A stretch of DNA of 35,205 nucleotides from a virus, in the IMG/VR virus record IMGVR_UViG_3300009152_001153, positions 1 to 35,205 of that record. The stretch is one strand, 5' to 3'. The position numbers and the translations under genes are program-made. Below the pieces are notes generated by a model. That model was not told the origin of the DNA and searched no databases. It was given only the letters and a program-made list of their open reading frames with translations. Each line of letters opens with the position of its first letter. Within the stretch, counting starts at the first letter, position 1. Positions 7,105 through 32,995 of this stretch are shown here, piece by piece.

Positions 7105-7108
7105 AATC

Positions 7109-8266
7109 ATGGCAACACAAACAATAGTTTCAGGCGTTCAATACTCAGGCATCTGGACAATGCAACAGGTGAATGCCGCTATTGCGGCTAATACTTGGCC
7201 TAGCCCGCCGGGGCCAGCTTTGTATACATGGGGCGCTAACTATGGTGCACAACTTGGTTTAGGCAACACAACAGCATATTCTTCACCAAAACAAGTTGGT
7301 TCTTTAATTACATGGGCTAGTGTTTCTGGTGGTGCAACTTTTACTTTTGCAATCAAATTAGACGGTACTTTGTGGTCATGGGGTCGCAATGGTGCTGGGC
7401 AATTAGGTTTAGGTAATGTTACTTACTACTCATCTCCAAAACAAGTTGGTGCTTTAACAAATTGGTTAAAAGTTTCAGCAGGGTCGTATTCTTGTGCCGC
7501 TATTAAAACCGATGGAACTATATGGTCGTGGGGGAATGGTCAAAACGGTAAATTGGGTCTTGGAAACACCACCTATTATTCTTCCCCAAAACAAATTGGA
7601 TCATTAACTAATTGGGCAAATGTTGCCGTTGGTGATGAACATGTTATAGCATTAAAAACTGACGGAACACTTTGGTCTTGGGGTAGCGGATCAAGTGGTC
7701 GTTTAGGGTTAAATGATTTAACAAATCGTTCATCCCCTGTCCAAATTGGCGCTCTTACATCATGGGTAAATTTAGAAGCTGGGTTTGCCAACTCGCAAGC
7801 AATCCAATCTAATGGAACATTGTGGTCATGGGGATTGGGTAGTTTTGGTGGATCTGGTCTAGGTAATACTACTACTTACTCATCTCCTAAACAAATTGGA
7901 GCATTAACAACATGGTTAAAAGTGTCTACTGGTTATCAATTTACTTTAGCTATTAAAACAGATGGCACTTTGTGGTCTTGGGGTAAATGCAACACTGGAC
8001 AATTAGGGCTTGGTAATAGCACATATTATTCATCACCCAAGCAAGTTGGTGCTCTAACTGCGTGGAGTAATTCAAGTTGTGGTTTGTATCACTCAATTTC
8101 CACTAAAACAGATGGAACTCTTTGGTCGTGGGGTAACAATAATTATGGACAACTTGGTTTAGGAGACACTACTAATCGAAATAGTCCTAATCAAGTTGGT
8201 AGTTTGACAACATGGCTTAGCACTTCTGCTGGCTCTTACCATACAGTAACAATTAAAACAACATGA
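7109..8266 (+). CDS. RCC1-type seven-bladed propeller protein B1
   Basis: A 385-residue protein with seven RCC1-like repeats of about 50 residues, from LYTWGANYG to LWSWGNNNYGQLG. The N-terminus differs from the A type: VSGVQYSGIW (residues 7-16) then an Ala-rich linker to the first blade. This N-terminus recurs in the gene at 11148, including a 19-base identical DNA stretch. Blade 4 carries an NRSSPVQ loop, shared with blade 4 of B2. The gene starts 4 bases after A1 stops with no clear ribosome site, so coupling is likely. Its stop overlaps the fusion enzyme start (ATGA at 8263). Likely a surface adhesin of the virion; the function is inferred from context. Confidence 0.85.
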   Translation: MATQTIVSGVQYSGIWTMQQVNAAIAANTWPSPPGPALYTWGANYGAQLGLGNTTAYSSPKQVGSLITWASVSGGATFTFAIKLDGTLWSWGRNGAGQLGLGNVTYYSSPKQVGALTNWLKVSAGSYSCAAIKTDGTIWSWGNGQNGKLGLGNTTYYSSPKQIGSLTNWANVAVGDEHVIALKTDGTLWSWGSGSSGRLGLNDLTNRSSPVQIGALTSWVNLEAGFANSQAIQSNGTLWSWGLGSFGGSGLGNTTTYSSPKQIGALTTWLKVSTGYQFTLAIKTDGTLWSWGKCNTGQLGLGNSTYYSSPKQVGALTAWSNSSCGLYHSISTKTDGTLWSWGNNNYGQLGLGDTTNRNSPNQVGSLTTWLSTSAGSYHTVTIKTT

Positions 8267-10032: not shown

Positions 10033-11144
10033 GCTTTAGATACGCCGCTGGGATAAACAAGCCGGGGTTTAACCCGCTTGGTGCTCAGACCACAACTTTC
10101 TTTTACAATTTGTACAGTTGGGGCGATAACCAATTTGGTCAACTTGGTTTGGGCAATATTACTAACTATTCCTCACCCAAGCAGGTTGGGTCATTAACTG
10201 AGTGGTTAACTATAGCTGGTAATCGTTATTATAATGCGGCTGTTAAAACCAATGGTACTTTATGGACTTGGGGCAGGAACAATTTTGGGCAGTTAGGTCA
10301 CGGTAACACCACCAGCTATTCCTCTCCTAAACAGGTAGGCGCTCTTACTTCGTGGGCATCACTTGGTCTTGGTAGTGATTTCATGTTGGCTATTAAGACT
10401 GATGGAACATTGTGGTCGTGGGGAAGAAACCAAGACGGGGCGTTGGGATTAGGCAATTTAACTAATTACAATTCTCCCAAACAAGTTGGTGCATTAACTA
10501 ATTGGTCAAAAGTAACTGCGGCAGATAGCTCCACTTTAGCTATTAAAACAGATGGAACACTTTGGGCTTGGGGCTTCAATTTATCTTATGGTCAATTAGG
10601 ATTAGGTAATACAACTGGTTATTCTTCTCCTAAACAAGTCGGTGCATTAACTAATTGGTCGTTTGTTTCTGCTGGTGCTGTTTTTACTTCTGCAATTAAA
10701 ACAGATGGAACATTGTGGGTTTGGGGTGGAAACTATGATGGTTTTTTAGGTTTAGGAAACACAACTTCGTACTCATCACCCAAGCAAGTTGGAGCATTAA
10801 CCACTTGGCTTAACATAGCTTCTGGATATTGCACATTGGCAACCCAAACCAATGGCACATTATGGTCATGGGGAAGTAATTTGGTGGGAATTCTGGGTTT
10901 GGGAAATACAACCTATTATTCCAGCCCTAAACAAATTGGTGCTTTAACTACTTGGCTCAAAGTTCACACTAGACAAGGAATACTTTCTTCCTTTGCCATT
11001 AAGACAGATGGAACCCTGTGGGGTTGGGGTAGGAACAATCTTGGTCAGTTAGGACTTAATAACACAACAAATTATTCAAGCCCTAAACAAGTAGGTTCTT
11101 CTACTTGGAATGTAGTATCTGGCAGTAGTTTGGCGCTAGGATAA
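10029..11144 (+). CDS. RCC1-type seven-bladed propeller protein A2
   Basis: A 371-residue protein, paralog of the gene at 5977: it shares KPGFNPLGAQT (residues 11-21) and seven RCC1 repeats. The fourth blade has five instead of four residues in the variable loop (FNLSY). It starts with GTG 10029 inside GTGA, overlapping the fusion enzyme stop, with a GAGGAG site upstream. The C-terminal half-blade (VVSGSSLALG) would complete the first blade, as in other RCC1 propellers. The role is inferred as for A1: a tail-associated binding protein. Variable loop residues differ completely from those in A1. Confidence 0.85.
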   Translation: MSFRYAAGINKPGFNPLGAQTTTFFYNLYSWGDNQFGQLGLGNITNYSSPKQVGSLTEWLTIAGNRYYNAAVKTNGTLWTWGRNNFGQLGHGNTTSYSSPKQVGALTSWASLGLGSDFMLAIKTDGTLWSWGRNQDGALGLGNLTNYNSPKQVGALTNWSKVTAADSSTLAIKTDGTLWAWGFNLSYGQLGLGNTTGYSSPKQVGALTNWSFVSAGAVFTSAIKTDGTLWVWGGNYDGFLGLGNTTSYSSPKQVGALTTWLNIASGYCTLATQTNGTLWSWGSNLVGILGLGNTTYYSSPKQIGALTTWLKVHTRQGILSSFAIKTDGTLWGWGRNNLGQLGLNNTTNYSSPKQVGSSTWNVVSGSSLALG

Positions 11145-11147
11145 ATC

Positions 11148-12299
11148 ATGGCAACATCAGTCGTATCAGGCGTTCAATACTCAGGTATCTGGAACATCAG
11201 CAGTCAAGCCAATGCTAAGGCGGCGGGGACTTGGCCTGTGCCGCCGTATGCAAGTTTGTATAGCTGGGGCGGTAACGGTGCAGGCCAGCTTGGTTTAGGT
11301 GATACAACAAATCGTTCATCTCCTAACCAAGTGGGTTCTTTAACAACTTGGTTTGCAATTGGTTGCGGTAGCAATCACACCATAGCAGTTAAAACTGACG
11401 GTACTTTGTGGACTTGGGGTAATAACTATGGCGGTCAACTTGGCGTAGGTAATACAACTTTTTACTCATCTCCAAAACAAGTAGGCGCTTTGACGGCATG
11501 GTTAAATGTTGCGGGTGGTACATACCATACTTTATCAACTAAAACTGATGGAACTTTATGGGCATGGGGCGCTAATTCGTTTGGTCAGTTAGGTCTTGGA
11601 AATGTTACTTACTACTCTTCTCCCAAGCAAGTTGGCGCATTAACAACTTGGTTAAGTGTTGCGTGTGGTCGATACCACAGCATAGTTATTAAAACTGATG
11701 GCACACTGTGGACTTTTGGAAGAAATACACAAGGTCAATTAGGTTTAGGTGATGCCACCAACCGATCTAGTCCAGTGCAAGTAGGTTTACTCACTACTTG
11801 GCTTAAATCTGCGGGTGGGACTTATAACACAATAGCCGTTAAAACAGACGGGGCTTTATGGACTTGGGGCGGCAACAGCGCTGGTCAATTAGGTTTAGGC
11901 AACACAACAAATTACTCAAGTCCAAAACAAGTTGGTTCACTTACCACATGGCTTAAAGTCGCCAGTGGCACTTACCACAGTATGGCTACCAAAACTGATG
12001 GAGCTTTGTGGACTTGGGGAAATAATCAGTTTGGTCAATTAGGTACAGGGAATATTACTTATTATTCTTCTCCCAAACAGGTGGGCGCATTGACTACTTG
12101 GTTAAATATTGCAGGCGTTGGTCGAGCAACTGTAGCAACCAAAACAAATGGCACACTTTGGACATGGGGACATAATAATCAAGGTCAACTTGGTATTGGC
12201 AATACGACTAATTACTCTTCGCCAAAACAAGTTGGTTCACTTACCACATGGTTAAGTGTGGCGGGTGGGTTTTACCAAATGATCTCAAACGAAACTTAA
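11148..12299 (+). CDS. RCC1-type seven-bladed propeller protein B2
   Basis: A 383-residue protein, paralog of the gene at 7109, with VSGVQYSGIW (residues 6-15) and seven RCC1 repeats. Blade 4 has an NRSSPVQ loop, as in blade 4 of B1, which supports descent by whole-gene duplication. One blade has LWTFG instead of LWTWG and two have GALW for GTLW. It starts 3 bases after A2 stops without its own clear ribosome site. It closes the propeller cluster; a 36-base AT-rich gap follows before the next gene, the largest gap on this strand. Likely a virion adhesin (inference). Confidence 0.85.
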   Translation: MATSVVSGVQYSGIWNISSQANAKAAGTWPVPPYASLYSWGGNGAGQLGLGDTTNRSSPNQVGSLTTWFAIGCGSNHTIAVKTDGTLWTWGNNYGGQLGVGNTTFYSSPKQVGALTAWLNVAGGTYHTLSTKTDGTLWAWGANSFGQLGLGNVTYYSSPKQVGALTTWLSVACGRYHSIVIKTDGTLWTFGRNTQGQLGLGDATNRSSPVQVGLLTTWLKSAGGTYNTIAVKTDGALWTWGGNSAGQLGLGNTTNYSSPKQVGSLTTWLKVASGTYHSMATKTDGALWTWGNNQFGQLGTGNITYYSSPKQVGALTTWLNIAGVGRATVATKTNGTLWTWGHNNQGQLGIGNTTNYSSPKQVGSLTTWLSVAGGFYQMISNET

Positions 12300-17218: not shown

Positions 17219-19345
17219 ATGGCACTTAAGAAACTTGCATTGAAACCGGGAGTGAACCGGGAAAACACCCGTTACACAAACGAAGGCGGTTGGTTTGAGT
17301 CCGACAAAGTGCGGTTTCGCCAAGGTACACCTGAAAAACTGGGTGGCTGGGCACGTATTTCAGTGTCCACATTTTTGGGTGTATGCCGTTCACTGTGGAA
17401 CTTCATTACCCTAGCCAACCTGAACCTTCTGGGTATTGGTACAAACTTAAAGTTCTACTTAGAAAACGGTGGCAACTACTACGACATCACGCCTCTTAGG
17501 TCAGCAGCGGTACTGAGCAATCCGTTTAAAACAACCAACCTATCTACCACTGTTACTGTGACGCACACGGCTCACGGTGCTTCAAATGGCGATTTTGTTA
17601 AGTTTAGCAATGCGGCCACGGTGGGTGGATTAGACTTAAATAATGAGTATCAGCTTACTTTGGTTGATTCCAACTCATACACCATTACAGCAGCTACGGC
17701 AGCAACCTCTACGGTAGCGGCTGGTGGTGGTACGACTGTCAGTGCTGTCTATCAAATCAACGTAGGTCTGGCTTATGAAACGCCATTAACTGGTTGGGGT
17801 GCTGGCACTTGGGGCGCTGGAACATGGGGCTACGGTGGTACGTCCACCTCTGCTCTTCGTTTATGGAGCCAGTCTAACTTTGGTGAAGACCTAATTATCG
17901 GATTCCGTGGTGGCCCAATCTATTACTGGGATGCCAACTTTGGGGTGTCCCCAGCTACATTTACGGTGACTATTGCCAGCCCTGCGGTAGTGACTTCTAC
18001 CATTAGCTTGTTAGATAACACTCCTGTAATCATTACCAACTCAGGTTATCCATCTGCTTTGCCTACGGGTTTATCTGTGGGAACTACGTACTATGTTAAA
18101 GGTACTGGCGGCACAACATTTAACTTGGCATTGACCGCTGGCGGGTCGGCTATTAACACTACTGGATCACAGTCTGGTACGCATTACATCATGCCTAACG
18201 CAGTGCCTGTAACGTCTTTGTATGGGGCTTCTGACGTTCCAACCATTCAGAACTTCATTTATGTATCTGATGTCAGCCGGTTTGTGTTTGCATTTGGTTG
18301 TAACGACTACGGCTCTAGCATTCAAGACCCCATGTTAATTCGTTGGGGGGATCAAGAATCTGTAGTTAACTGGACTCCATCGGCTACAAATCAAGCCGGT
18401 AGTGTTAGATTGTCTCACGGCTCAAGCATCATTACAGCTATTCAAACCCGTCAAGAGATTGTGGTGTGGTCTGATGCCGCCGTGTATTCTCTCCAATACA
18501 TTGGGCCGCCCGTAGTGTGGTCTAGCCAGTTGCTGGGTGACAACATTTCTATCTTGAGTCAAAACGCAGTAGCCCAAGCATCCGGTGTGGTTTACTGGAT
18601 GGGCGTTGATAAGTTCTATTCCTATGATGGTCGTATCAATACACTGAACTGCGACCTGCGTAAGTTCATCTACCAAGACATTAACTTGGGTCAAGGCCAG
18701 CAAGTATTTGCCAGTACCAACGAAGGCTTTAACGAAGTCTGGTGGTTCTATTGTTCTGCTAATAGCACAACGATTGACCGCTACGTCATCTATAACTATG
18801 TAGAAGCCAACCCAGCCGGTGGTAAAGGTATCTGGTACTACGGCACTATGGCACGAACAGCATGGCTTGATTCTGGTTTAAGGGATTACCCTATTTCCGC
18901 TAACGTATTGAACGTCAGCACATCTACAAGCAACATTTTGAACCAAGAATATGGTTTAGATAATAATGAAACTGGCACTCCAGTGGGTATTGATTCTTAC
19001 ATCTCTTCATGTGAGTTTGACATTGATGATGGTGACAAGTTTGGCTTTGTCTGGAGGATGTTGCCTGACTTGACGTTTTCTGGCTCGGATGCTTCTCCTA
19101 CGCCCGAAGTTGTTTACACGCTGTATCCAATGCAGAACTCAGGTTCAGGCACTGGCACGGCTGTAACAGGTAATGTGGATAAATTAACGGGCGCGTCTTA
19201 TACGGTTACTGAAGGCTTTACTGGTCAGATTAACACCCGTGTGCGTGGCCGTCAGCTTATCTTAAAGGTTGGCTCTACCAATTTGGGAACAGCATGGCAG
19301 TTGGGTTCTACCCGTATTGACATCAGACCGGACGGCAGACGATGA
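17219..19345 (+). CDS. Tail hub/stabilisation-like protein (P22 gp10-like)
   Basis: A 708-residue beta-rich protein. Its start has KPGVNRENTRYTNEGGWFES, then VRFRQGTPEKLGGW and a CRSLWNF segment. These are features of the packaged-DNA stabilisation/tail hub proteins of P22 gp10 type. A central Thr/Gly/Ala-rich insert (residues about 110-180) looks like a beta domain, and there is a WGAGTWGAGTWGYGG repeat near residue 195. The C-terminal DIRPDGRR is charged. It follows the lysozyme by 3 bases and its stop overlaps the next start (ATGA at 19342). Virion role is likely; the exact name is tentative. Confidence 0.55.
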   Translation: MALKKLALKPGVNRENTRYTNEGGWFESDKVRFRQGTPEKLGGWARISVSTFLGVCRSLWNFITLANLNLLGIGTNLKFYLENGGNYYDITPLRSAAVLSNPFKTTNLSTTVTVTHTAHGASNGDFVKFSNAATVGGLDLNNEYQLTLVDSNSYTITAATAATSTVAAGGGTTVSAVYQINVGLAYETPLTGWGAGTWGAGTWGYGGTSTSALRLWSQSNFGEDLIIGFRGGPIYYWDANFGVSPATFTVTIASPAVVTSTISLLDNTPVIITNSGYPSALPTGLSVGTTYYVKGTGGTTFNLALTAGGSAINTTGSQSGTHYIMPNAVPVTSLYGASDVPTIQNFIYVSDVSRFVFAFGCNDYGSSIQDPMLIRWGDQESVVNWTPSATNQAGSVRLSHGSSIITAIQTRQEIVVWSDAAVYSLQYIGPPVVWSSQLLGDNISILSQNAVAQASGVVYWMGVDKFYSYDGRINTLNCDLRKFIYQDINLGQGQQVFASTNEGFNEVWWFYCSANSTTIDRYVIYNYVEANPAGGKGIWYYGTMARTAWLDSGLRDYPISANVLNVSTSTSNILNQEYGLDNNETGTPVGIDSYISSCEFDIDDGDKFGFVWRMLPDLTFSGSDASPTPEVVYTLYPMQNSGSGTGTAVTGNVDKLTGASYTVTEGFTGQINTRVRGRQLILKVGSTNLGTAWQLGSTRIDIRPDGRR

Positions 19346-19689
19346 GCTACATCATTACGTCTGAGTATGAGTTAAACAAGGTAGCCGCACCTAACTTGCC
19401 GTTGGCTCCACAAGAGTATGACGCTCAATACATTGACCAGTTAAACAATGTTTTACGTCTGTATTTCAACAGGCTAGATGCGTTAACTACGCAGTTGACA
19501 GCCTCTGGCGTAGTGCCTCCTTTGACTAACTACACAGTAGCTACGCTACCCAGTGCAGTCACTTCAGGCAAAGGTGCAAGAGCTTTTGTAACAGATGCTT
19601 TAGGCCCAACATTTGGGGCTACCGTTGTGACTGGTGGAGTGGTGGCTGTGCCTGTTTACTCTGATGGTACGAATTGGAAAGTTGGATAA
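19342..19689 (+). CDS. Small phage virion protein
   Basis: A 115-residue protein. The N-terminal half is helical (DAQYIDQLNNVLRLYFNRLDAL). The C-terminal half has a beta-rich, Gly-containing tail (ARAFVTDALGPTFGATVV, then VYSDGTNWKVG) that I have seen at ends of several phage fibre or internal proteins. It overlaps both neighbours (ATGA 19342; TAATG at 19687). Probably a small tail or ejection component; no known function. Confidence 0.6.
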   Translation: MSYIITSEYELNKVAAPNLPLAPQEYDAQYIDQLNNVLRLYFNRLDALTTQLTASGVVPPLTNYTVATLPSAVTSGKGARAFVTDALGPTFGATVVTGGVVAVPVYSDGTNWKVG

Positions 19690-22600
19690 TGGCAATTTCA
19701 GACCAAGACATATTTAATTGGTTTTTGGCTAATCCCAATGCGGATGACGCTACTGTTGCCGCTACGATGGATCAGTTTAAACTGACTCCAGCAGATATTG
19801 CTCGTGCTACTGGTACTAATTTATCTAATGTTCAGTCTAGATACGAAGCTGTTGCACCTCAAACTGGCATAGTTACTATTCCAAATACTGGAGTAGATAC
19901 TACAAATATTAGTGGAGGTATCAGTACTTTAGTAACTCCAATCCCAGTTACCCCAGCTATCACATCTGTCTCACCAGTTGTAACCCCAGTTGTAACTTCA
20001 GTCCCAACTCCAGTTGCAATCCCAGTTACTCCAGCTATTACATCTGTTACTCCAGTTGTAACTCCAGATGTAACTGTAGTTCCAACTCCAATCGTTACAG
20101 TTGTTACTCCTACGTCTGAGACAATACCTTTTAATTATGAAAGTGTGTATGACGCTTTTGGCGGGAAAGATGCTACCAATGCTTTGATTGCACAGATTAA
20201 AGCTATGGGGTTATCTGATAGTGATATTGCTGGTCTTTTTGCCCCGTATCAAAAAACAACAGCTATTGCTCCAGTAGTTACGCCTGTTGTTTCTCCTGTA
20301 CCTGTTCCAGAGGTAAGTCCGACACCAGTAGTGACTCCTGTAGTTATACCTGCGGTTACTCCTATAGTCACACCAGCAGTCTCAGTTACACCCATAGTTA
20401 CACCAACTCCTGTTGTTGATTCCTTAGTAACAACTGCATCACCAACAGTAGTTCCTATTGACACACTTGCTGTTGCAGGTAGTGGTGGGAATGTACTTAA
20501 CATCCCCGGATATGGTGAACTTAATTCTTCTACCCTTAATTCATGGGAGCCTTGGCGCTTAACCATGCTGGGTATTACTAAGAATGCCGATGGTACTTTT
20601 AGCTATGGCGGAGGCCCAGCTTGGGAAACTACTGTAGGAACAACTAATAGAAATCTGTACGACCAGATCAATAGCATCTCTAATCTTCAAGGGATGAGTG
20701 GTCTGTTTACTGGTGGCGCATTAGGAAAAGATGATGGTGGTTTAGGATCGAAAGAAGCTGTTCTGTGGGACTTTGCTAATAAGTTATCTGGTCAAGGTGT
20801 TACCAGTCTTTCCGACATTGGTAGACGCATGGTTACAAGAACCATTTCGACTGAACAGGGCGATCAAACTGTAGAAGAAGAAGAGATTTACAACAAGTTA
20901 ACTGGTAAACCTCTTAACATTCAAGGTACTACATTAGGTGGTAATCAAACTAACTATGGGTTTACTTTTACCAATACTGGGTTGGCTATTCCAACTACCA
21001 CAGGTACTAAAAGTGATTGGGTAGATTTCACGCAGAACGTTTTACCTATGGTACTGACGGCAGTTTCTGTCATGTACCCAGCGGCGGCTCCTTATATTCA
21101 ATCTTATAACGCTGCCAAAGCTGCGGCAAATGGTCAGTGGGCGGCGGCGGCTTTTAGTGGATTGTCTGCGGCTTCTGGATTTTCTGGACAAATTAAAGAT
21201 CAAATTGATGCACTGGCTAATGCAGGTAAATTTGCCGAGGCAGAACAGTTATTTAACGATAGCTGGTTAGCTCAGAATGCTGGTACTTTGAACACAGCTA
21301 AAGGCGTAGCTTCATTAGTAAATGCTGTTGATACTAAAAACGTAGCAGGTGCTATCAATGCAGGTATGAACCTAGCAGGAGCAACACTACCACCAGAAGT
21401 TCGTACTGCTGTTAACTGGGCTAACTTAGGTAAAGCCATAATTGACAATGATTATGCAGGCATGGCTTCTGCGGCCAGTGCTCTTACTGGTAGTAGTAAT
21501 TTAAAGGTAGCGGCATCGGCGGCTAACTTTGTAAAAGCATTAGACATATTTACAAAGACTGGTAATACAGCAGGATTGATTAGTGCTGGTAATTCCTTTG
21601 GTGACACCATTAAAAGTTTGCCAACATCTACTGGCACCGACGTTGTTACCACTCTTCAAGATTCTGGTTTAACAGAAGGACAAAATTTATCTGTAGCTGA
21701 GCAAAGAGCAAACGCATTAACAACAATTTACGATTACAACAGTGACTCTGAAAACCTTGGTATAAATTTAATTAGTCCTACGCAACTTGCGTCAGGTGAT
21801 GGATATACAGGTGGATTACCTAAACCAGAATTTAAACCAAACCAAGTTAATATTGATACTGCAACTGGTAAAGCATTTTTTACTACTATTGATACTTCAG
21901 GTGTAACAAAAAATATACCAGTAGTTATTGATGGTAAAACAGGACAACTATTAACTTCATCAGAAAATGCTGCATCATTAAATAAAGCATTAGCAGATAT
22001 TCCACGCCTATCATTTAGTTCTGAATTAATGAGGGCTTTGCAGGTATTAAATCCTGCTATTGGTGATAGAACAATTATTCCTACAAGTTCTATTGTTACT
22101 CAGGCAGAGTTAGATGCTTTGCTTGGTAAAGAAGTAATAGATGTTACTGCTAAAGATATAACTAGCACAGATACAACAAAGACAACTAAATCACCATTTG
22201 CTTCTGTCGCTGATGTAATCAGAACATTTGGTAGTCTTGATGTTGCAGAAACTGCAATGGGTATTGATGCTTTAATGAAGATTCCCGGCGTTCAAGATGC
22301 AATGAATGCTGGATATATTAGAGATTTAGAAGAAGCACTTAAACTAGATCCTTCAAGGACTGAATTACTTGAGGAATATAAACGGATAACTGGTAAAGAC
22401 TTTACTCCTAATGTGACTGATATGGGTACAGTTACTATTGTTGGCACAAGAATAACCCCATCTCCAGTAGTATCTACAATAGTATCTCCAATTCCATTAT
22501 TTCAAGATGCAGATGGTAACTATGTTACGGCTGATGATTTAAGTTTACTGACATCAAAGAAAACTTCAGTAAGTCCTTCTCTTAATGTCAGCACATATCC

Positions 22601-23975
22601 TAGTGTTTCTGTATCGCCTTCGGTATCTACTACGCCAAAAGTTACAACGGTACTTTTTTATGATGCTGATGGTAATCCAGTTACACCAGATGATTTAGAA
22701 AAGATTACACAGAAACCTACTCCAAGTCCTTCTGTGTCTGCGTCAGTCTCAGTGACTCCAACGGTAACTCCTTCTGTGTCCGTAACACCCACAGTAACTC
22801 CGTCTGTTTCACCTACTGTTTCTGTATCTCCATCTGTAGAACCTACGGTTACGCCTAGTGTTTCCGTATCTCCAACGGTCAGCCCAAGCGTTTCGGTTAG
22901 CCCATCCGTGTCTCCATCGGTTGAACCGTCGGTAAGTGTTTCTCCATCGGTTAGTACTAGCGTATCGGTTAGTCCATCAGTTGAGCCATCGGTAAGTGTC
23001 TCTCCGTCAGTAAGTGTTAGCGTATCCCCATCGGTAAGTACATCGCCCAGTGTTTCAGTGTCGCCGTCTGTTAGCACATCCCCATCGGTGAGTACATCGC
23101 CGTCAGTAAGCGTTTCACCGTCTGTTAGCACATCACCGTCGGTAAGTGTTTCGCCTTCCGTAAGTACATCCCCATCGGTCAGTGTTTCACCATCTGTTAG
23201 TACATCACCTTCAGTAAGTGTTTCTCCATCGGTAAGTACATCGCCTTCCGTAAGTGTTTCCCCATCTGTCAGTACATCTCCGTCAGTCAGTGTCTCACCA
23301 TCGGTTAGTACATCTCCGTCTGTAAGCACATCTCCATCGGTTAGTGTTTCACCATCAGTTAGTGTTTCTGTTAGCCCATCGGTTAGTCCATCGGTTAGTG
23401 TTACGCCAACGGTAACACCATCGGTTTCTATAACACCTACTGTTACTCCTTCGGTGTCTATTACTCCGACTGTTACACCAAGTGTTTCTGTTACACCAAC
23501 GCCAAGTATTACACCTAGCATTACGCCTAGTATTACGCCTACGGTCACACCGACCCCAAGTATTACCCCAACTCCAAGTATTACGCCAAGCGTTAGTCCA
23601 ACGCCTAGCATTACGCCAACGGTATCAATAAGAATTAGTCTGACACCTACTAAGTCTGTTGAGCCGTTCACAATGCCGCAAGCACAGAACATTGCTGCTG
23701 CTTTTGGCCTGCCTCAACTGGCAAATGTCTTCTACTATGGCAAAGAGTTTGGCTCTAAGAAACAAAAGCTGGACAAAAAAGGTGAGCTAGAAGATGAAGA
23801 CTACCGCGCTCTCAGTGTGACCAAAGCGGGAGCGGAGGGCGAAATGTTAGAAGACATTGCCCAAGAGAAGAAAAACAACGAAAATAACGCCAATGACGCA
23901 TTGGATTTAATCCTTGGGAAATCTAGTGACTCAATGTCGTTAGACGACTTAATTAATATTGTGAAGGGTGGCTGA
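19689..23975 (+). CDS. Large virion protein with Ser/Pro/Val repeat stalk
   Basis: A 1428-residue protein (ATG 19689 in TAATG overlap). It opens with a small helical domain (SDQDIFNWF...NVQSRYE, about residues 5-55), a copy of which occurs in the next gene. A Thr/Pro/Val-rich spacer with TPVV motifs follows (about 70-230), then helical and Ala-rich core sequence to about residue 900. Residues about 950-1315 are low-complexity, dominated by six-residue units SPSVST/SPSVSV and looser TPTVTPSVS units. The last 110 residues are charged and helical. It is likely a tail or injection-associated protein with a rigid rod or surface-glycan-like stalk. The long Ser/Thr tract is a possible glycan or sulfate acceptor (inference). 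Confidence 0.75.
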   Translation: MAISDQDIFNWFLANPNADDATVAATMDQFKLTPADIARATGTNLSNVQSRYEAVAPQTGIVTIPNTGVDTTNISGGISTLVTPIPVTPAITSVSPVVTPVVTSVPTPVAIPVTPAITSVTPVVTPDVTVVPTPIVTVVTPTSETIPFNYESVYDAFGGKDATNALIAQIKAMGLSDSDIAGLFAPYQKTTAIAPVVTPVVSPVPVPEVSPTPVVTPVVIPAVTPIVTPAVSVTPIVTPTPVVDSLVTTASPTVVPIDTLAVAGSGGNVLNIPGYGELNSSTLNSWEPWRLTMLGITKNADGTFSYGGGPAWETTVGTTNRNLYDQINSISNLQGMSGLFTGGALGKDDGGLGSKEAVLWDFANKLSGQGVTSLSDIGRRMVTRTISTEQGDQTVEEEEIYNKLTGKPLNIQGTTLGGNQTNYGFTFTNTGLAIPTTTGTKSDWVDFTQNVLPMVLTAVSVMYPAAAPYIQSYNAAKAAANGQWAAAAFSGLSAASGFSGQIKDQIDALANAGKFAEAEQLFNDSWLAQNAGTLNTAKGVASLVNAVDTKNVAGAINAGMNLAGATLPPEVRTAVNWANLGKAIIDNDYAGMASAASALTGSSNLKVAASAANFVKALDIFTKTGNTAGLISAGNSFGDTIKSLPTSTGTDVVTTLQDSGLTEGQNLSVAEQRANALTTIYDYNSDSENLGINLISPTQLASGDGYTGGLPKPEFKPNQVNIDTATGKAFFTTIDTSGVTKNIPVVIDGKTGQLLTSSENAASLNKALADIPRLSFSSELMRALQVLNPAIGDRTIIPTSSIVTQAELDALLGKEVIDVTAKDITSTDTTKTTKSPFASVADVIRTFGSLDVAETAMGIDALMKIPGVQDAMNAGYIRDLEEALKLDPSRTELLEEYKRITGKDFTPNVTDMGTVTIVGTRITPSPVVSTIVSPIPLFQDADGNYVTADDLSLLTSKKTSVSPSLNVSTYPSVSVSPSVSTTPKVTTVLFYDADGNPVTPDDLEKITQKPTPSPSVSASVSVTPTVTPSVSVTPTVTPSVSPTVSVSPSVEPTVTPSVSVSPTVSPSVSVSPSVSPSVEPSVSVSPSVSTSVSVSPSVEPSVSVSPSVSVSVSPSVSTSPSVSVSPSVSTSPSVSTSPSVSVSPSVSTSPSVSVSPSVSTSPSVSVSPSVSTSPSVSVSPSVSTSPSVSVSPSVSTSPSVSVSPSVSTSPSVSTSPSVSVSPSVSVSVSPSVSPSVSVTPTVTPSVSITPTVTPSVSITPTVTPSVSVTPTPSITPSITPSITPTVTPTPSITPTPSITPSVSPTPSITPTVSIRISLTPTKSVEPFTMPQAQNIAAAFGLPQLANVFYYGKEFGSKKQKLDKKGELEDEDYRALSVTKAGAEGEMLEDIAQEKKNNENNANDALDLILGKSSDSMSLDDLINIVKGG
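22900..23640 (+). repeat. 18-bp/6-residue Ser-Pro-Ser-Val-Ser-(Thr/Val) tandem repeat
   Basis: The most regular part, about 23020-23370, repeats every 18 bases and encodes S-P-S-V-S-T or S-P-S-V-S-V. Serines 1 and 3 of each unit use TCN codons and serine 5 uses AGT/AGC. Third positions vary freely (for example tca ccg tct gtt agc aca). Flanking parts drift into TPTVTPSVS and TPSIT units. The fixed codon class at each Ser with variable wobble bases indicates an old tandem expansion kept by selection on the protein. Confidence 0.9.
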
Positions 23976-25028: not shown

Positions 25029-25931
25029 ATGGCTACCTCATACCCTTCTCCCGGCACCTCTTCCCAATCAACTCTATCTGACTGGGCTGGTGGTTATGTA
25101 ACGGACATGCTTGGAAAAGCTCAGGCTATTTCCGAGCAGCCCTATCAGGTTTACCAAGGCCCAATGACGGCTGGTGAGTCTGGTCTTCAGAATAAAGTAT
25201 TTCAAGGTCTTGGAAGTCTTAACTTTCCTAGTCAGCTTGGTAATACGTTTAGTTCTGCTGGCGCTTATCAACCTCCAATGATGGGTCAGAATGCGTATGC
25301 TCCCGGTGCTATTGGTACTGGTGCCGGTGCTCCTATGGGTGCTCCTATGGGTGGTACTTTGGGTGATGGTGGTAACGCTCCATCTCAGCCTACAGGTATT
25401 GCTTCTCAATACATGAATCCGTATTTGCAGTCTGTATTAACACCACAGTTAGAAGAACTGCGCCGCCAGTCACAGATTAATCTTCAGCCTAGCATGGCTA
25501 AGATGACCCAAGCCGGCGGTTATGGTGGTGGCCGTCAGGCTATTATGGAATCTGAAGCTAACCGTAATTTGTTGCAAGCACAGAACCAAGCTATCGGCAC
25601 TGGGTACTCTAATGCCTACGATAAAGCTATGGGTCAGTTCAATACTGAGCAGGGTCAAGCTAAGACACTGGCTGACATTATGGGTCAAGCTGGCGCACAA
25701 CAGCGCGGTATTGAGCAAGAAGGTATTACTGCTGACTACAACGAGTTCTTGGCTCAGCGTGACTACCCAATGAAGCAGACTCAATATTTACAGTCTATGC
25801 TTCAAGGTCTACCGATCTCTACTGTTTCTACCACTCCCGCTTCACAGACAGGTTTGGGTGCGTTGCAGTCTACAGTGGGTACGTTAGGATCTACATACGA
25901 CTTGCTCAAGAAACTTAAAGTTATCGACTAA
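25029..25931 (+). CDS. Phage virion protein, probable internal/ejection
   Basis: A 300-residue protein rich in Gln, Gly, Ala and Ser. Residues about 85-125 are Gly/Met/Pro-rich. The second half is helical with NPYLQSVLTPQLEELRRQS, then a GGYGGGRQAIMESEANRN segment and many Gln residues. This layout (disordered first half and helix-rich second half) is one I know from proteins encoded beside phage ejection proteins. It starts behind a TAAGGAAT site 8 bases after the previous stop. It lies in a run of virion genes leading to the giant protein at 27701. Confidence 0.6.
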   Translation: MATSYPSPGTSSQSTLSDWAGGYVTDMLGKAQAISEQPYQVYQGPMTAGESGLQNKVFQGLGSLNFPSQLGNTFSSAGAYQPPMMGQNAYAPGAIGTGAGAPMGAPMGGTLGDGGNAPSQPTGIASQYMNPYLQSVLTPQLEELRRQSQINLQPSMAKMTQAGGYGGGRQAIMESEANRNLLQAQNQAIGTGYSNAYDKAMGQFNTEQGQAKTLADIMGQAGAQQRGIEQEGITADYNEFLAQRDYPMKQTQYLQSMLQGLPISTVSTTPASQTGLGALQSTVGTLGSTYDLLKKLKVID

Positions 25932-25940
25932 GGATAAGAC

Positions 25941-27701
25941 ATGAATCTCGTTCAAATACAAGAGCGTCTAAAGGATCTACCTACACAGGCAATCATGTCC
26001 TATGCCAATGGAATGAACCCTGAAGTTCCTCCTTACTTGGCTTTAGGTGAGTTGAACCGCCGCAAACAGATGGAGCAGAAATCTGCTCAAGCTCCCACTG
26101 GTACTGTCAAAGACAACATTGAACAGCAGATGTCTACCATGCAGATGCAAGCGGCTAAGCAAAGACAGATGGCTCAGCAGATGGCACAGCAAGGTGCTCA
26201 AGCTCAGATGCCTGTTCCGCCCGGTGTGCCTGAGCCACAGATGCAAGCTCAACCAGAAGACTCTGGAGTGGCAACGTTGCCAACCGGAGAGATGAACTTT
26301 GGCTCTGGCGGTATTATTTCTTTTGCTACTGGCGACTTAGTTGATGAAGCTAAAGCTGCGGCTAAAGCTGCTAAAGAAAAGCTTTATACCTATGGTTTGC
26401 GTCAACGTCAGCAAGATCCAGAAGGATATGCGGCGGCTCAAGCTGAAGCTGCTATTGCAGAAGATAATATGGTCAAAGCCCAAAGATCTAGTCCTGAGAC
26501 TGGCCCTGCGGGTGCAATGGGTAAGAGCATGATTCAACCTATGGCTCCTCCTGTGGCTGTGCAACCACCACCTCCACCTCCTGCACCACCTCCACCTCCT
26601 GCTCCTAAGCCAGAGGTAAGAAACATTCCACCCGGCGGAATAGCTAATGTTGTTCCTCAAAAAGTGATGCAACAAAATGTACCTATTGCACCGCAACAAC
26701 CGCAAGAACCTTCGGCACCCGCATCTCCTTTGCTTGACATTCTTAAGACAAAGATTGCTGAGCCTACGCCAACGCTTCCAGACTATGAAGCTGAACGTGC
26801 TGCTGCTGCCGTTAAAAATCCTTTGTTAGCTATGCAACAGGGTAAGAAGATTGAAGAAGGCATCGCAGGTCTGCGTCAAGGCTACGACAAACAGCAAGCG
26901 GCATTTGATAGAGCAGAGCAGGAACGTGCTCGTGCTTCTTTGTGGCAAGGTTTAATCGAGGGTGGTGAGTCTACTCGTGGTATCCGTGGTCGTGGATTAG
27001 CTGGTCTAGGTACTGGCGCTGGTAAGTCTTTCCTAACTTCTATGGAAGGTGCCCGTTCCCGCGAGTTGGCTCAGCAAGACTTGGTAACACAGCGTAACTT
27101 TAATCTTACTAAGATGGAAAGTGAACTTGAGAACGCCCGTATTGCTGAGGCAAAGGGTGACTTTAATACTGCATACGGTCACAAGCTGAAAGCTGCTGAG
27201 TTCAAACAGAACGCTGCTAAAGATACCAATCAGTTGCTTGGTCAAGGTGCTCAGATTGAAAGTGCTGATAACCGTGAAGTTATGCGCCTGCGTAATGAAA
27301 GAGAACTGGCCGATCTTCGGTTTAAATACGAGAAAGAACTTAAAGGCATTCCTCAAGCACAACGTGCTACCTTTGAAGAACAGTATGTTGCAGAAGCTGT
27401 TAGACGAGGTATGCCTAGACTGGATGCTATGCGTGAGGCTAAGACACTTGGCGTTGAGGCCAAAGGTCAGCTTACCTATGGCCAAGCTGCGGATGATGTG
27501 GACAATTTCTTGAAAAGCACTCAAGGCATGACTTATATTGCAGGCTTAAACAAAGCTGCAAAAGAAAAGAATCAACCTATGCCTGATGCGTTTAGTATTC
27601 GTAAGAATCTTATTGACCAACAGATGCAACAGTCGGGTAGCAAGAACGCACCTAAGAGTGATTTACTTAAAGCGGCAGATGCAATTGTTGGAGCAAAGTA
27701 A
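25941..27701 (+). CDS. Gln/Pro-rich virion protein
   Basis: A 586-residue protein. Residues about 10-60 are helical and charged; a Gln/Met-rich coil follows (KQRQMAQQMAQQGAQAQM). Residues about 118-135 have GGIISFATGD. A Pro-rich tract (PPPPPPAPPPPPAPKP) lies at about 205-223. The C-terminal part is helical with many Arg/Glu/Gln, including ERARASLWQGLIEGGESTRG. No enzyme motif is visible. A TAAGGAT site precedes ATG 25941. Its stop overlaps the next start as TAATG. Likely an internal or tail protein that interacts with the giant ejection protein. Confidence 0.65.
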   Translation: MNLVQIQERLKDLPTQAIMSYANGMNPEVPPYLALGELNRRKQMEQKSAQAPTGTVKDNIEQQMSTMQMQAAKQRQMAQQMAQQGAQAQMPVPPGVPEPQMQAQPEDSGVATLPTGEMNFGSGGIISFATGDLVDEAKAAAKAAKEKLYTYGLRQRQQDPEGYAAAQAEAAIAEDNMVKAQRSSPETGPAGAMGKSMIQPMAPPVAVQPPPPPPAPPPPPAPKPEVRNIPPGGIANVVPQKVMQQNVPIAPQQPQEPSAPASPLLDILKTKIAEPTPTLPDYEAERAAAAVKNPLLAMQQGKKIEEGIAGLRQGYDKQQAAFDRAEQERARASLWQGLIEGGESTRGIRGRGLAGLGTGAGKSFLTSMEGARSRELAQQDLVTQRNFNLTKMESELENARIAEAKGDFNTAYGHKLKAAEFKQNAAKDTNQLLGQGAQIESADNREVMRLRNERELADLRFKYEKELKGIPQAQRATFEEQYVAEAVRRGMPRLDAMREAKTLGVEAKGQLTYGQAADDVDNFLKSTQGMTYIAGLNKAAKEKNQPMPDAFSIRKNLIDQQMQQSGSKNAPKSDLLKAADAIVGAK

Positions 27702-30700
27702 TGGCAACAGCAGAACAGTATGCAGAATGGTTAGTACAGAACCAAGATAAAAAGGGCACACCTGATTTTGATACGGTTGCCTCCGCATACCGTTCGCTTA
27801 GATCTGCTCCACAACCTACTGCTCCTTCCAGAGAAAGAACATACGGAGAAGCCGCCAAAGACATTGGTGCTGGTGTCATTGGTGGTATTGGATCTTTAGT
27901 TCAACTGCCCGGCCAGCTTTATGGCTTAGCTACTGGTAACTTTAATAAGACTGGTGCTTTGGGTGCTGGCGAGGAGATCTCTAAGTTTGCTGAAGAGATG
28001 AAGTCTGCTGGCCTCAAAGCTCGTGAGGCTGAGCGGGCTAGGAAAGTTGCTGAGTCTGCACAGCAAGGACAGTTTCAAGCGTTTGGTACTGCACTTGGTG
28101 AGACTGTCAAAGATCCCGGATTGTTGTTGTCTTTTATTGCAGAGCAAGCTCCTCAATTGCTAATTCCATTTGGTGCTGCCCGTAGTGTAGGTATGGCGGC
28201 TAAAGGTCTCGGTGCGGCTGAAGCTGCGGCTGGTAAGGCTGCGGTTTCTGGAGCGGTGGGTGCTGGCGCGGTACAGCAAGGTGCTGACGTAGGTGCTGGT
28301 GCATACGAGAACATCTACAAAGAACTTAAGAGTAAAGGTGCTACAGATACCGAGGCTGCTCAGGGTGCTTTGACTTTAGCGCGTCAAGCTGGTGCCGCCG
28401 CAGGTACTATTTCTTTACTGGCTCAACGTCTACCCGGTGCTCGTCAGCTTGAGGAAGCTTTGGCTGGTGTTCCCGGTAAGGGAGCGGCTGGTCTTGGTGG
28501 CAGATTAAAAACTGCTGGCGGTGCTGCTCTTGGTGAAACCATTGGTGAGATACCTGAAGAGGTCGGTGGTAAGTTTGTTCAGAACTTGGCTATGAGACAG
28601 GTTAAACCTGAGCAAAGTTTGACTGAAGGTTTAGGTGAAGCTGCGGCTATGGCCACTATTGGTGGCGTAGGTTTGGGTGGTGCGGCTGGTTTAGCTCGCC
28701 GTCCTGCTGCTCCTGAAGTAAAGCCAGAGACAACTCCGTTTGATGTAACAAAGTTACCACCTGAGATTCTTACTAGGATTGAAGAGATCACTGGTGTTAA
28801 ACAACAACCTCAAGAACAGCAACCTATGCTGTCTGCTGAAGAGGCTGGTCGTCAGCGTATCAATATGCTTCAACAGAAAGTTGATGCTGAGTCTCAAGCT
28901 CTTTCTACTGCATTACCTGAATCACCACAAGAAAAGGCCGCTCGCGCTGCGGCACCTCCCGCGACACAGCCTAGCTTGAATGAGCAGATGCCTCAAGCTA
29001 CACCTCTTGCAGAGTTGGAGGCTAAGCAAGCTGAGATTGATCGCCTGCGTTTAGAGGCAGGACTTCCTACTGGTGCGTCCTCTAAGACTCCGGGCGTACA
29101 GCCTACCACGCCCGTGGTGGAAGAGACACCTACGCCCAAGATTGTGGACAACCGTCCCCTTGAAGAACGTGCTGCAAAGAACCGTTTATTGGTCATGCAG
29201 AACATGCTTCAGAACCAAGGCGGTGATCCTAATAGCTTGGCTATTGTTCCTCACCCTACAGTTGATGGTAAGTTTGCTATCCAGTCTTTGGACGTTCCAG
29301 TCAAGCTGACTAAGAACCTGCCTGAGACTGCAATCAATAAACCTGAGTCTCCAGTTGTTATTGATCCTGTCAACGCATACATGGAGATTGCTCGCCGTAC
29401 TAATACGCCTGCGTCTATGCGTTTGGTTAAAGACTTTGAGGCTGGCATTGTTACCCGTGAAGATGTAGAAGCTGCTATTGCCGCCGAACAAAAAGCCGGA
29501 CAGCCTTTACCTTTGAACTACAAAGGTAACGGTGAGCCTTGGTTCATTGCGCCTGATACATACAAGCCACGAGGTGATCGTGAAGTTCCACCTATTTCTG
29601 ACTATGTAAAACCTCCAGAAGTAGAAGCTCCTCCTCCGCCAGAACCTCCAATAATTACAAAGAATGAGATGCCTAAAACTCTTGAGGAGTTTAGACAGCG
29701 AGTTCCTGTGGCTAAGGACAATCCAGAATATAGAGATGCTAATAATCAAGGTAGCTTTACAAAGTTGGCTGATGCTATGGCCAAGAGTACCAATCCAATT
29801 ATTAAAAGAGTTGGTGAACTTAGTCAGAATGTTGCAGGTCAAGTTAAGCTTCACAAACCCGGCGGTCTTTCTAACAGAAGCTGGGTAGGTCAGTACACTT
29901 ACACAGACCACTCTATTAAGATGCGTCCTTCTCACGCTGGTGATGAGTGGACTAATGCACATGAGGCAACCCATGCTTTAACAGCGTTAGCTCAACGTTT
30001 CCCAACCAATGCACAAAAGCCACACGTTGAACAAATTCAAAAGTTATTTGACCATGTAAAGAAGGAACTAAACCGCAAAGGTTATGGCTGGGGTAGAAAG
30101 TATTCTAAGCAAGTCTATGGTTTGTCTGATGTAGTAGAGTTTACTGCTGAAGCAATGAGTAACCCTGAGTTTCAATACATGCTGATGCAAGTCCCATATC
30201 AGGGTAAGAAGTCTGCATGGACTAAGTTTGTAGAAGAAGTTGCCGCCATTCTTGGCATCAAAGATACTAATGCTTTGACTGAAGTCATGAACTTGGTGGA
30301 CAAGATCTCTCAACAGAAACCTTCTAAGTTTATTAGAAATCCTGTTAAGGGAGAAATAGGTGCCGAGGAACAGCCATCTAAGATAGAACAGGTTAAGCAG
30401 AAGGTCTCTACTGCCCTACAGAAACAAAAGCCCCTTGCGCCTGAAGTGATGGCTGGTGTAAACCAACAGTTTACAGATGCAGCTAACCGTGTCTTCAAGC
30501 CACAGACCAGAACGATTGTCGAGAAGATCTCTGACATGCAGGATCGTTTCTGGCAGCGTCTGGCTCAGGGTATTGCTGACCAGTACCGCACGATCAAAGA
30601 CTACTCTCCCGTAGGCTACATGCAAGCCCGTTTATCTAAGAGTGTTGACGGTGCTTTAGAAGGTATCTTATTTAACGGTCATGTCTTTAATGATGGCGGT

Positions 30701-32995
30701 GCGTTGAACATTAAAGGCAACACCAAAGGTCTCATCGAAACGCTCAAGCCTGTCGGCTCTGAGGTGGATCGTTACCAGATGTGGGTTGCACTGAACCGTG
30801 AATTTAACCTGCCAGAACCAAAACGTTCACGTAGCGATGACATGGACTACATGGTAGCCAATCGTAAGCAGTTGTCTGAAGGAACTATTAACGGCAAACC
30901 TCGTGCTGAAGTCTATGCTGCTGTCCTTAAAGATATGAATAATCTAAACCGTTCCGTCTTGGATGTGGCTTTAGATCAAGGTTTGATTGACAAGTTTAGT
31001 TACGACAACTTTGTCAATGACATTTACTACATTCCTTTCTATCGCCAGATGGAAAACGGTGATCTTCAAGGCGCTCAGACATCAGCAGGTCTGACCCGTC
31101 AGCAGTTTTCCAAAGCTTTAAAAGGCGGAGGAGAGCGTCCTTTCGGTGACTTGATGGAGAATACTCTGCGTAACTGGAGTCACATCCTGTCTGCGTCGAT
31201 GAAGAACCAAGCCGCCGTAACAACTGTCAAAGATGCTGAGAAGCTAGATGCCGTAGAGCGAGCTACAGAAGCCGGCCCAGATACCGTTAAGGTTATGGAA
31301 GACGGCAAGCCTGCTTACTACACCATCAAAGATCCTCTTTTGCTTGAATCCATTACCTCTATTGGTTACTTAGGGCCACAGTCTAAGTTCCTTGATGTGT
31401 CTCGTGATTTCAAGAACATCTTGCAGTACGGCGTTACGATGTCTCCAGCGTTCAAAGTAAACAACTTGTTCCGAGATTCAGTTCAATCTATGGCTGTGTC
31501 TGACTTAAGTAAGAATCCATTTGCTAACGTTGTACAAGGATGGATTGCTACTGACAAGAACAATCCTGCACACATCTCTGCTCTGGCCGGTGGTGCTATC
31601 TTTAACTTTGGTACAGCTTATGAAGGTAATCAGGCCAAGTTAATTAAAAGACTACTGGCTAAAGGCGTTCAAGAGTCTGACATCTTAGATACACCAGACA
31701 AGATTAAAGCTGGTTTGTCTAAGCTCTTTGAGAAGTATGAGGAGTTAGGTAACAAGTCTGAAGCTGCTAACCGAATGGCGCTTTATAACCAGTTGAAAGA
31801 GGCAGGTTATTCTCACTTAGAAGCTTCTTTCCAAGCCCGTGACTTGATGGACTTCTCCATGCAGGGATCGTTCGGAGCATTCCGTTACTTGACTCAGGTC
31901 GTACCTTTTATGAATGCACGTATCCAAGGCTTATACAAGCTGGGTCGTGACGGCATTCTTCCTACTAGCCGTGTGTTCTACAACTCATTGACTGGTAAAG
32001 AGATTGACCTTGACGATAAGAAGAAGGCTCAAGCTTTCTCTATCATCACAGGAGCAGTCTGTCTTGCTTCGCTTGCCCTGTATGGTGCATTCAAAGACGA
32101 CGATGAGTTCCAAAAGCGTAGTGACTGGGACAGAGATAACTTCTGGTGGATCCGTTTACCCGGCATGGAAGCGGCTCTTCGTATTCCTAAGCCGTTTGAG
32201 ATTGGTGCTCTTGGGACTGTTGCCGAGCGTACAGCCGAGCAGATCTTCGATGCCAACGCTGAAGGTAAACAGTTTACAAGTGCCCTTAATCGCATGATGT
32301 TTGACACATTTGCGATGAACCCACTGCCACAGGTTATCAAACCTGTTGTAGATTTGTACGCTAATAAAGATAGCTTTACTGGTGCGCCTATTGAGACTGC
32401 CGGTATGGAGGCTCTGTCTAAGGCTGAGCGTAAAGCTGACACTACAAGTCCTTTGGCTTTAGCTTTGGCTCCTGTACTTAACATAGCTTTGCCAGAAAAA
32501 GCAGAGTTAAGCCCAGTTCAGGTGGACTATGCTATTAAGGGCTACTTCGGCTGGCTTGGCGGAACAGTTGCTACCACTTCTATGTACGCTGTCATGCCGT
32601 TCAAAGAAGGTGCATATCCAGATACTCAATGGATGGACAAGGCTAGCCTTGGTTTTGTAAAGAGCTTACCTTCTAATCAGTCTCAGTACACGACTGCGTT
32701 CTACGAGAACAACAAGCAGATCCAACAAGCCTTTGCTGATATGCGTCACTATGCTGAGATTGGTCAGATGGATAAAGTCCAAGAGATCATGGAAGAGAAG
32801 GGTGATAAAGTTGCTCTTCAGAAGATGTACACCCAGACCTCTAAACAGATGGCTAACATCCGTAAGCAGATCTCTATGGTGACTAACGACACCAGTATGG
32901 ACGGGGCTACAAAGCGGGAGCAGATTGACGAGATGAAAGAGTTGATCTCCATGCTAGCCAAGCAAGCTGAAGATACTAGGAAAGCAATGAAGTAG
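27701..32995 (+). CDS. Giant internal virion/ejection protein with HEXXH metallopeptidase and LPD38-like region
   Basis: A 1764-residue protein. Residues 1-35 are a small helical N-terminus; about 50-340 are Ala/Gly-rich with hydrophobic helices (PFGAARSVGMAAKGLGAAEA type). Residues 754-758 are HEATH, an HEXXH zinc motif, followed near 813-817 by EFTAE, a plausible third-ligand Glu. This is a gluzincin-like site, here perhaps used on peptidoglycan or capsid proteins during entry. From about 1010 to 1600 the sequence (NRSVLDVALDQGLIDKFSYD, NNLFRDSVQSM, PFMNARIQGLYKLGRDG) resembles the LPD38 large polyvalent domain found in phage internal proteins. A hydrophobic segment near residue 1445 may cross the membrane. 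The C-terminal 150 residues are helical. It ends the rightward late genes. Confidence 0.7.
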   Translation: MATAEQYAEWLVQNQDKKGTPDFDTVASAYRSLRSAPQPTAPSRERTYGEAAKDIGAGVIGGIGSLVQLPGQLYGLATGNFNKTGALGAGEEISKFAEEMKSAGLKAREAERARKVAESAQQGQFQAFGTALGETVKDPGLLLSFIAEQAPQLLIPFGAARSVGMAAKGLGAAEAAAGKAAVSGAVGAGAVQQGADVGAGAYENIYKELKSKGATDTEAAQGALTLARQAGAAAGTISLLAQRLPGARQLEEALAGVPGKGAAGLGGRLKTAGGAALGETIGEIPEEVGGKFVQNLAMRQVKPEQSLTEGLGEAAAMATIGGVGLGGAAGLARRPAAPEVKPETTPFDVTKLPPEILTRIEEITGVKQQPQEQQPMLSAEEAGRQRINMLQQKVDAESQALSTALPESPQEKAARAAAPPATQPSLNEQMPQATPLAELEAKQAEIDRLRLEAGLPTGASSKTPGVQPTTPVVEETPTPKIVDNRPLEERAAKNRLLVMQNMLQNQGGDPNSLAIVPHPTVDGKFAIQSLDVPVKLTKNLPETAINKPESPVVIDPVNAYMEIARRTNTPASMRLVKDFEAGIVTREDVEAAIAAEQKAGQPLPLNYKGNGEPWFIAPDTYKPRGDREVPPISDYVKPPEVEAPPPPEPPIITKNEMPKTLEEFRQRVPVAKDNPEYRDANNQGSFTKLADAMAKSTNPIIKRVGELSQNVAGQVKLHKPGGLSNRSWVGQYTYTDHSIKMRPSHAGDEWTNAHEATHALTALAQRFPTNAQKPHVEQIQKLFDHVKKELNRKGYGWGRKYSKQVYGLSDVVEFTAEAMSNPEFQYMLMQVPYQGKKSAWTKFVEEVAAILGIKDTNALTEVMNLVDKISQQKPSKFIRNPVKGEIGAEEQPSKIEQVKQKVSTALQKQKPLAPEVMAGVNQQFTDAANRVFKPQTRTIVEKISDMQDRFWQRLAQGIADQYRTIKDYSPVGYMQARLSKSVDGALEGILFNGHVFNDGGALNIKGNTKGLIETLKPVGSEVDRYQMWVALNREFNLPEPKRSRSDDMDYMVANRKQLSEGTINGKPRAEVYAAVLKDMNNLNRSVLDVALDQGLIDKFSYDNFVNDIYYIPFYRQMENGDLQGAQTSAGLTRQQFSKALKGGGERPFGDLMENTLRNWSHILSASMKNQAAVTTVKDAEKLDAVERATEAGPDTVKVMEDGKPAYYTIKDPLLLESITSIGYLGPQSKFLDVSRDFKNILQYGVTMSPAFKVNNLFRDSVQSMAVSDLSKNPFANVVQGWIATDKNNPAHISALAGGAIFNFGTAYEGNQAKLIKRLLAKGVQESDILDTPDKIKAGLSKLFEKYEELGNKSEAANRMALYNQLKEAGYSHLEASFQARDLMDFSMQGSFGAFRYLTQVVPFMNARIQGLYKLGRDGILPTSRVFYNSLTGKEIDLDDKKKAQAFSIITGAVCLASLALYGAFKDDDEFQKRSDWDRDNFWWIRLPGMEAALRIPKPFEIGALGTVAERTAEQIFDANAEGKQFTSALNRMMFDTFAMNPLPQVIKPVVDLYANKDSFTGAPIETAGMEALSKAERKADTTSPLALALAPVLNIALPEKAELSPVQVDYAIKGYFGWLGGTVATTSMYAVMPFKEGAYPDTQWMDKASLGFVKSLPSNQSQYTTAFYENNKQIQQAFADMRHYAEIGQMDKVQEIMEEKGDKVALQKMYTQTSKQMANIRKQISMVTNDTSMDGATKREQIDEMKELISMLAKQAEDTRKAMK

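Follow-up and report, generated by a model that had tools for sequence, protein, structure and literature searches.

The window, a stretch of 35,205 bases from an IMG/VR virus record, encodes on its forward strand a giant LPD38 polyvalent or internal protein of 1764 amino acids (positions 27701-32995). According to sequence comparison and a structure model, residues 691-875 of this protein (29771-30325) have the fold of a zincin-like (gluzincin-type) metallopeptidase domain with a predicted metal site, and this domain seems to be swapped as a unit between related phages. We assign a probability of about 0.5 to the reading that it is an injected, LPD38-carried metallopeptidase, swapped as a cassette and most likely acting on a host protein after ejection. 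Domains of this kind are already described in phage-delivered proteins: among the domains of phage polyvalent proteins, zincin-like peptidases, in 12 clades, are the most frequent (Iyer et al. 2017, PMC5512222). The additions made here are the detail of conservation, the probable identity of a differently labelled region of the PhiM1 ejectosome with this domain, and the cassette exchange, of which the available text of that study has no measurement of the present kind.

Layout of the giant protein

All features of the protein lie on the forward strand. An Ala/Gly-rich N-terminal module (residues 51-350; 27851-28750) is followed by a linker-like segment (residues 351-690; 28751-29770), Pro-rich at about residues 601-650, and by the peptidase domain. 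Behind the latter come a variable junction (residues 876-925; 30326-30475) and a conserved carrier core (residues 926-1764; 30476-32992), which holds a hydrophobic segment (residues 1446-1464; 32036-32092) and the LPD38 domain (PF18857, residues 1467-1628; 32099-32584; Pfam E 1.7e-33). The presence of LPD38 in a large multidomain protein agrees with a phage-type LPD38 polyvalent protein, and the original prediction, an LPD38 internal protein with an embedded metallopeptidase-like domain, is supported by this match together with the HEXXH conservation and the zincin-like fold match described below.

LPD38 was the only domain that Pfam reported over the whole 1764-residue protein; no peptidase family was found for residues 691-875, no RNA polymerase domain, and no lysozyme or transglycosylase domain at E<1. 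Assignment to a known Pfam peptidase family was rejected; one of ten A1 members touched M90 (E 0.0032). Among PHROG families, two of unknown function were matched, 18222 over residues 927-1749 (E 8.8e-187) and 9854 (E 2.6e-44), followed weakly by 24837 (E 0.36); there was no match to PHROG 342, the family of the phiKMV gp37 ejection protein. Upstream neighbours match a DNA ejection protein (25029-25931, forward strand; PHROG 4287, E 2.7e-8) and a virion structural protein (17219-19345).

Conservation of the predicted metal site

Both motifs on which the original prediction had been built, HEATH at residues 754-758 (29960-29974) and EFTAE at residues 813-817 (30137-30151), are present in the 1764-residue reading frame. 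HEATH is its only HEXXH, and any HEXXH arose in 0.75% of 2000 shuffles of the protein; across the whole window, the motif occurs in one other of 146 stop-free stretches of at least 60 residues, a 69-residue frame on the minus strand. The decisive test of such a site is conservation rather than motif count. HEXXH and EF(T/A)AE were kept in all nine relatives found first (53-69% identity), and HEXXH in 23 of 24 viral loci from a profile search, the sole miss being a truncated locus (L023) that starts downstream of the site. The patterns of this search were free of HEXXH, but one of them (EFTAEAM) contained E813, so that the unbiased evidence for this residue comes from the nine first relatives and five named phages.

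We aligned 29 domains, 24 of the window type plus those of LUZ19 gp37, PhiM1, PSTRCR_114, Parlo and N4; L023 was left out. In this alignment, whose rows were each extracted around a HEXXH, H754, E755, H758 and E813 are conserved in 29/29, and E817 in 24/29, with W (twice), Y, A or Q in the remaining five rows. The His and Glu residues, whose variation among homologs had been named beforehand as the finding that would count against the site, are thus invariant. The general-base glutamate expected within HEXXH of a zincin-like metallopeptidase is conserved as E755, with H754 and H758 as predicted ligands. The third ligand, for which the original prediction had pointed to EFTAE as a whole, is likely E813 (30137-30139), because this residue occurs in all aligned domains while E817 varies; its context also fits the pattern (E,H)xx(A,F,T,S,G) given in PMC7213743. 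E817 (30149-30151), kept in the close family alone, was rejected as a ligand and probably is none.

Fold and homologous domains in other virion proteins

An AlphaFold2 model of residues 690-885, made from 10 sequences, reached pLDDT 82.8 and pTM 0.79 and contains both the HEXXH helix and the glutamate helix (model secondary structure: H10-19, a short EE 26-27, E41-44, E49-52, H60-77, H122-131), with E813 predicted to lie on the second, C-terminal helix (122-131). This structure prediction, proposed at the outset as a check, yielded a predicted fold that matches zincins. Foldseek against the PDB gave no match for the model at E 0.001 or better, and the PDB matches come from a second-look aligner (VIA-align), for which Z below 8 can reflect a common arrangement: the PhiM1 ejectosome protein 8vb2_A (Z 9.0, rmsd 4.7, 136 aligned), residues 2141-2366 of the N4 virion RNA polymerase (Z 7.4, rmsd 4.3-4.5, 161-162 aligned) and anthrax lethal factor entries (Z 5.6 and below, rmsd 6.0, 130 aligned). 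In BFVD, 17 matches reached E 0.001, including internal proteins of Bordetella and Ralstonia, and a phiKMV-group core protein matched at E 1.6e-6.

Profile comparison pointed to the same proteins. With a 19-sequence family profile of the window's peptidase domain as query, hhalign returned Parlo (1.8e-13), PSTRCR_114 (2.3e-10), LUZ19 gp37 (3.6e-6; phiKMV group, PDB 9sfn_G), PhiM1 (2.3e-5), MinM2 with its site at 1748 (1.1e-4), X14 (0.0025) and a second domain of locus L004 (0.0035); the MinM2 site at 590 (0.092) and a second Parlo domain (0.13) followed, and ten reversed controls gave E 0.13-0.46. N4 on its own was not a significant sequence match (E 0.012, 3.7% probability). LUZ19 gp37 bridges to N4, as its residues 415-562 match the virion RNA polymerase PHROG (E 6.8e-17); a search with the LUZ19 gp37 domain reached 120 phage records, N4-like virion RNA polymerases among them.

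In the tetrameric ejection protein of PhiM1, residues 268-528 have been called an "endolysin/exotransglycosidase-like domain" (PMC11440229). We identified this protein as gp43 of JX290549 (L030:12198-15989), which matches 8vb2_A over 1-1263; it has HEAAH at 385 plus the conserved glutamate, and this region matches the window's peptidase model. Judged from sequence and model, the labelled region therefore appears to be the same zincin domain, and the label probably came with the name of PHROG 342. Pfam at E<1 found no family in PhiM1 gp43 or LUZ19 gp37; its matches in PSTRCR_114 were weak and unrelated. The terms "metallo-", "peptidase" and "HEXXH" are absent from the searched main text of PMC11440229, a term search of the accessible text of PMC8954989 gave no match, and the open-access literature searched gave no report of a metallopeptidase in either phiKMV gp37 or the ejection protein of PhiM1. 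We suggest that the published domain label of the PhiM1 ejectosome be corrected.

These systems share the domain with the window's protein. The C-terminal cores of LUZ19 gp37 and PhiM1 are unrelated in sequence to the window's core (E 0.44 and 0.14, comparable to reversed controls). In N4 gp50, the HExxH domain (C1) is followed by a large C-terminal region, as in the window's protein, but gp50 is an RNA polymerase, and its C2 domain shows no sequence relationship to the LPD38 core (E 0.17). Sequence kinship of this core with the C-terminal cores of N4, PhiM1, LUZ19, PSTRCR_114 and Parlo was accordingly rejected (hhalign E 0.14-0.62). A longer model of 1075 residues was poor (pLDDT 61.0, pTM 0.41): Foldseek found nothing for it at E 0.001 or better, and in its alignment to PhiM1 the row covers 1-542 at rmsd 20. 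In architecture, the window's domain resembles the metallopeptidases of polyvalent proteins, which likewise combine an HEXXH helix with a glutamate helix and are embedded in large multidomain LPD38 phage proteins (PMC5512222). ArdC of plasmid R388 also brings a gluzincin-type peptidase in a DNA-entry protein (Z 2.7, rmsd 3.9, 93 aligned); it has a ssDNA-binding domain and acts in conjugation rather than in phage ejection.

The carrier core and its relatives

A search of viral contigs with the 823-residue core gave 130 relatives, of which 80 were kept; 61 of these have a complete N-terminus, and the other 19, with the N-terminus off the contig, were dropped. Upstream of the core, HEXXH is present in 60/61, the remaining one (L080) having HEXXXH, and the window's own peptidase family was matched in 20/61, counts that include the near-identical pairs L055/L056, L062/L063 and L092/L093. 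The 77 HEXXH segments from core relatives fell into groups of 55, 11, 10 and 1. The core also occurs in 51 named-phage records. Thirteen of these were examined, one (ARM81mr) being cut at its 5' end; four have HEXXH, five HEXXXH and four neither, where the HEXXXH cases, like that of L080, are sightings at the level of the motif only. HEXXXH variants were described by Iyer et al. (PMC5512222). The N-termini of the named-phage relatives (11/13 scanned) carry InPase with LPD3, ddrB-ParB, helicase and methyltransferase domains. A cellular or plasmid origin was rejected, since no relative was confirmed in genome contigs and none was found in plasmids.

Additional modules sit between peptidase and core in some relatives. 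ART-PolyVal ADP-ribosyltransferase modules directly follow the peptidase in L048 (two) and L050 (one), and L004 has a second HEXXH domain at this place.

Apparent exchange of the peptidase domain between similar carriers

In eight close relatives, identity is 75-93% over residues 51-350 and 82-96% over residues 1201-1764, compared with 42-73% over the peptidase domain. Peptidase pS (synonymous divergence) in the 36 pairs from nine sequences, pairs that are not independent of each other, was 0.22-0.48 in seven and 0.61-0.84 in 29, with none between. As pairs were assigned to within-type and between-type groups on this very pS, the difference in it is given by construction; what is informative is the gap itself, together with flanks that stay unchanged and a pN that is low. 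Mean pS of the other segments in the 29 between-type pairs was 0.39 for the N-terminal module, 0.53 for the linker, 0.66 for the junction and 0.50 and 0.49 for the core. In the seven within-type pairs, peptidase pN was 0.011, the lowest of six segments. The simplest reading of these sequence comparisons is that divergent peptidase alleles recombine between similar carriers and that each allele is under strong purifying selection. The exchange is evidence of modularity and constraint, not of a host target.

The first 275 residues of the core (926-1200; 30476-31300) form two classes among the close relatives as well (pN about 0.03-0.06 vs 0.11-0.14), a second exchangeable stretch.

Proposed delivery and possible function

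Delivery of the window's protein with the DNA is inferred by analogy. JC1 gp69, an LPD38 protein, was detected in purified virions by mass spectrometry with 51 unique peptides (PMC9144972), and the proteins bearing the HEXXH domain in PhiM1 (PMC11440229) and N4 are ejected. By the same reasoning, the capsid would contain the protein and release it together with the DNA, the N-terminal and LPD38 modules serving as carrier. H754, H758 and E813 would be the ligands of a divalent metal, with E755 as the activator of water; after ejection, the peptidase would act most likely on a host-cell protein, and its specificity could be changed by domain swaps between otherwise similar carriers. As a tentative extension, which we hold to be less than probable, near-identical LPD38 carriers may swap alleles whose targets are different host proteins, perhaps ones that act in defence. 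If so, the phiKMV-like and PhiM1 "endolysin/exotransglycosidase-like" domains would be injected metallopeptidases, too. The existence of matched carriers whose main difference is the peptidase allele, along with the homologous domains of LUZ19, PhiM1 and N4, makes active-site mutants directly comparable.

Of the other explanations, a possible one, though again short of probable, is self-processing, in which the modules of the giant protein are cut free by its own peptidase, either after ejection or in the course of assembly. Iyer et al. proposed this for polyvalent proteins, with the processing of P1 DdrB as a clue, and favoured it as a common theme (PMC5512222); cutting directly behind the peptidase would free the ART-PolyVal modules of L050 and L048. 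However, the PhiM1 protein of the mature virion was modelled as one chain (1103/1263 residues), with the window's model aligning across 297-517, which argues against a cut before infection in PhiM1. Moreover, conservation of the junction is low even among proteins of one peptidase type (pN 0.196 vs 0.011 for the peptidase), no type-specific site was seen in it by eye, and the swapping of alleles is easier to reconcile with an external target that changes than with a fixed site inside the protein, although these arguments are indirect. The domain might instead be a metal-bound structural brick, retained for folding or packing in the ejectosome and in no need of catalysis; both the PhiM1 ejectosome and the C-terminal region of the N4 virion RNA polymerase show it in ordered form, and such a site can be dispensable, as removal of the metal-ligand glutamate of the ArdC peptidase left conjugation unaffected (PMC7213743). 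We consider this unlikely, because E755, superfluous for a structural metal, is nevertheless present in 29/29, and the constraint on this general base speaks for catalysis.

Cleavage of peptidoglycan cross-links, one of the targets originally envisaged, is not supported. An endopeptidase that opens the wall to let the ejection channel through would agree with the annotation of relatives as internal proteins that contain endolysin or exotransglycosylase domains, but this annotation looks inherited from the PHROG name, LUZ19 gp37, PhiM1 gp43 and PSTRCR_114 give it no backing in Pfam, the region itself has HEXXH and matches peptidases, and the named matches of the window's domain are peptidases or virion proteins; we regard it as very improbable. 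A chance motif devoid of a metal site, to which the lack of a Pfam peptidase family might point, is more improbable still and was rejected in view of the four invariant residues and the fold match. An injected metallopeptidase with a host protein as its most likely substrate stays our preferred reading.

Further observations

In L002, the giant gene is split into frames of 1064 and 1025 amino acids (starts 7907 and 11073), by a frameshift, a split gene or an assembly error. Ahead of the ejection genes, the window has a 1433-residue reading frame (19674-23975) with patchy similarity in 8/12 related records and to no named family. Further upstream (5977-12299), four consecutive genes encode RCC1-repeat proteins, interrupted by a 589-residue fusion of sulfotransferase and TPR (8263-10032), an arrangement that is unusual for a phage.
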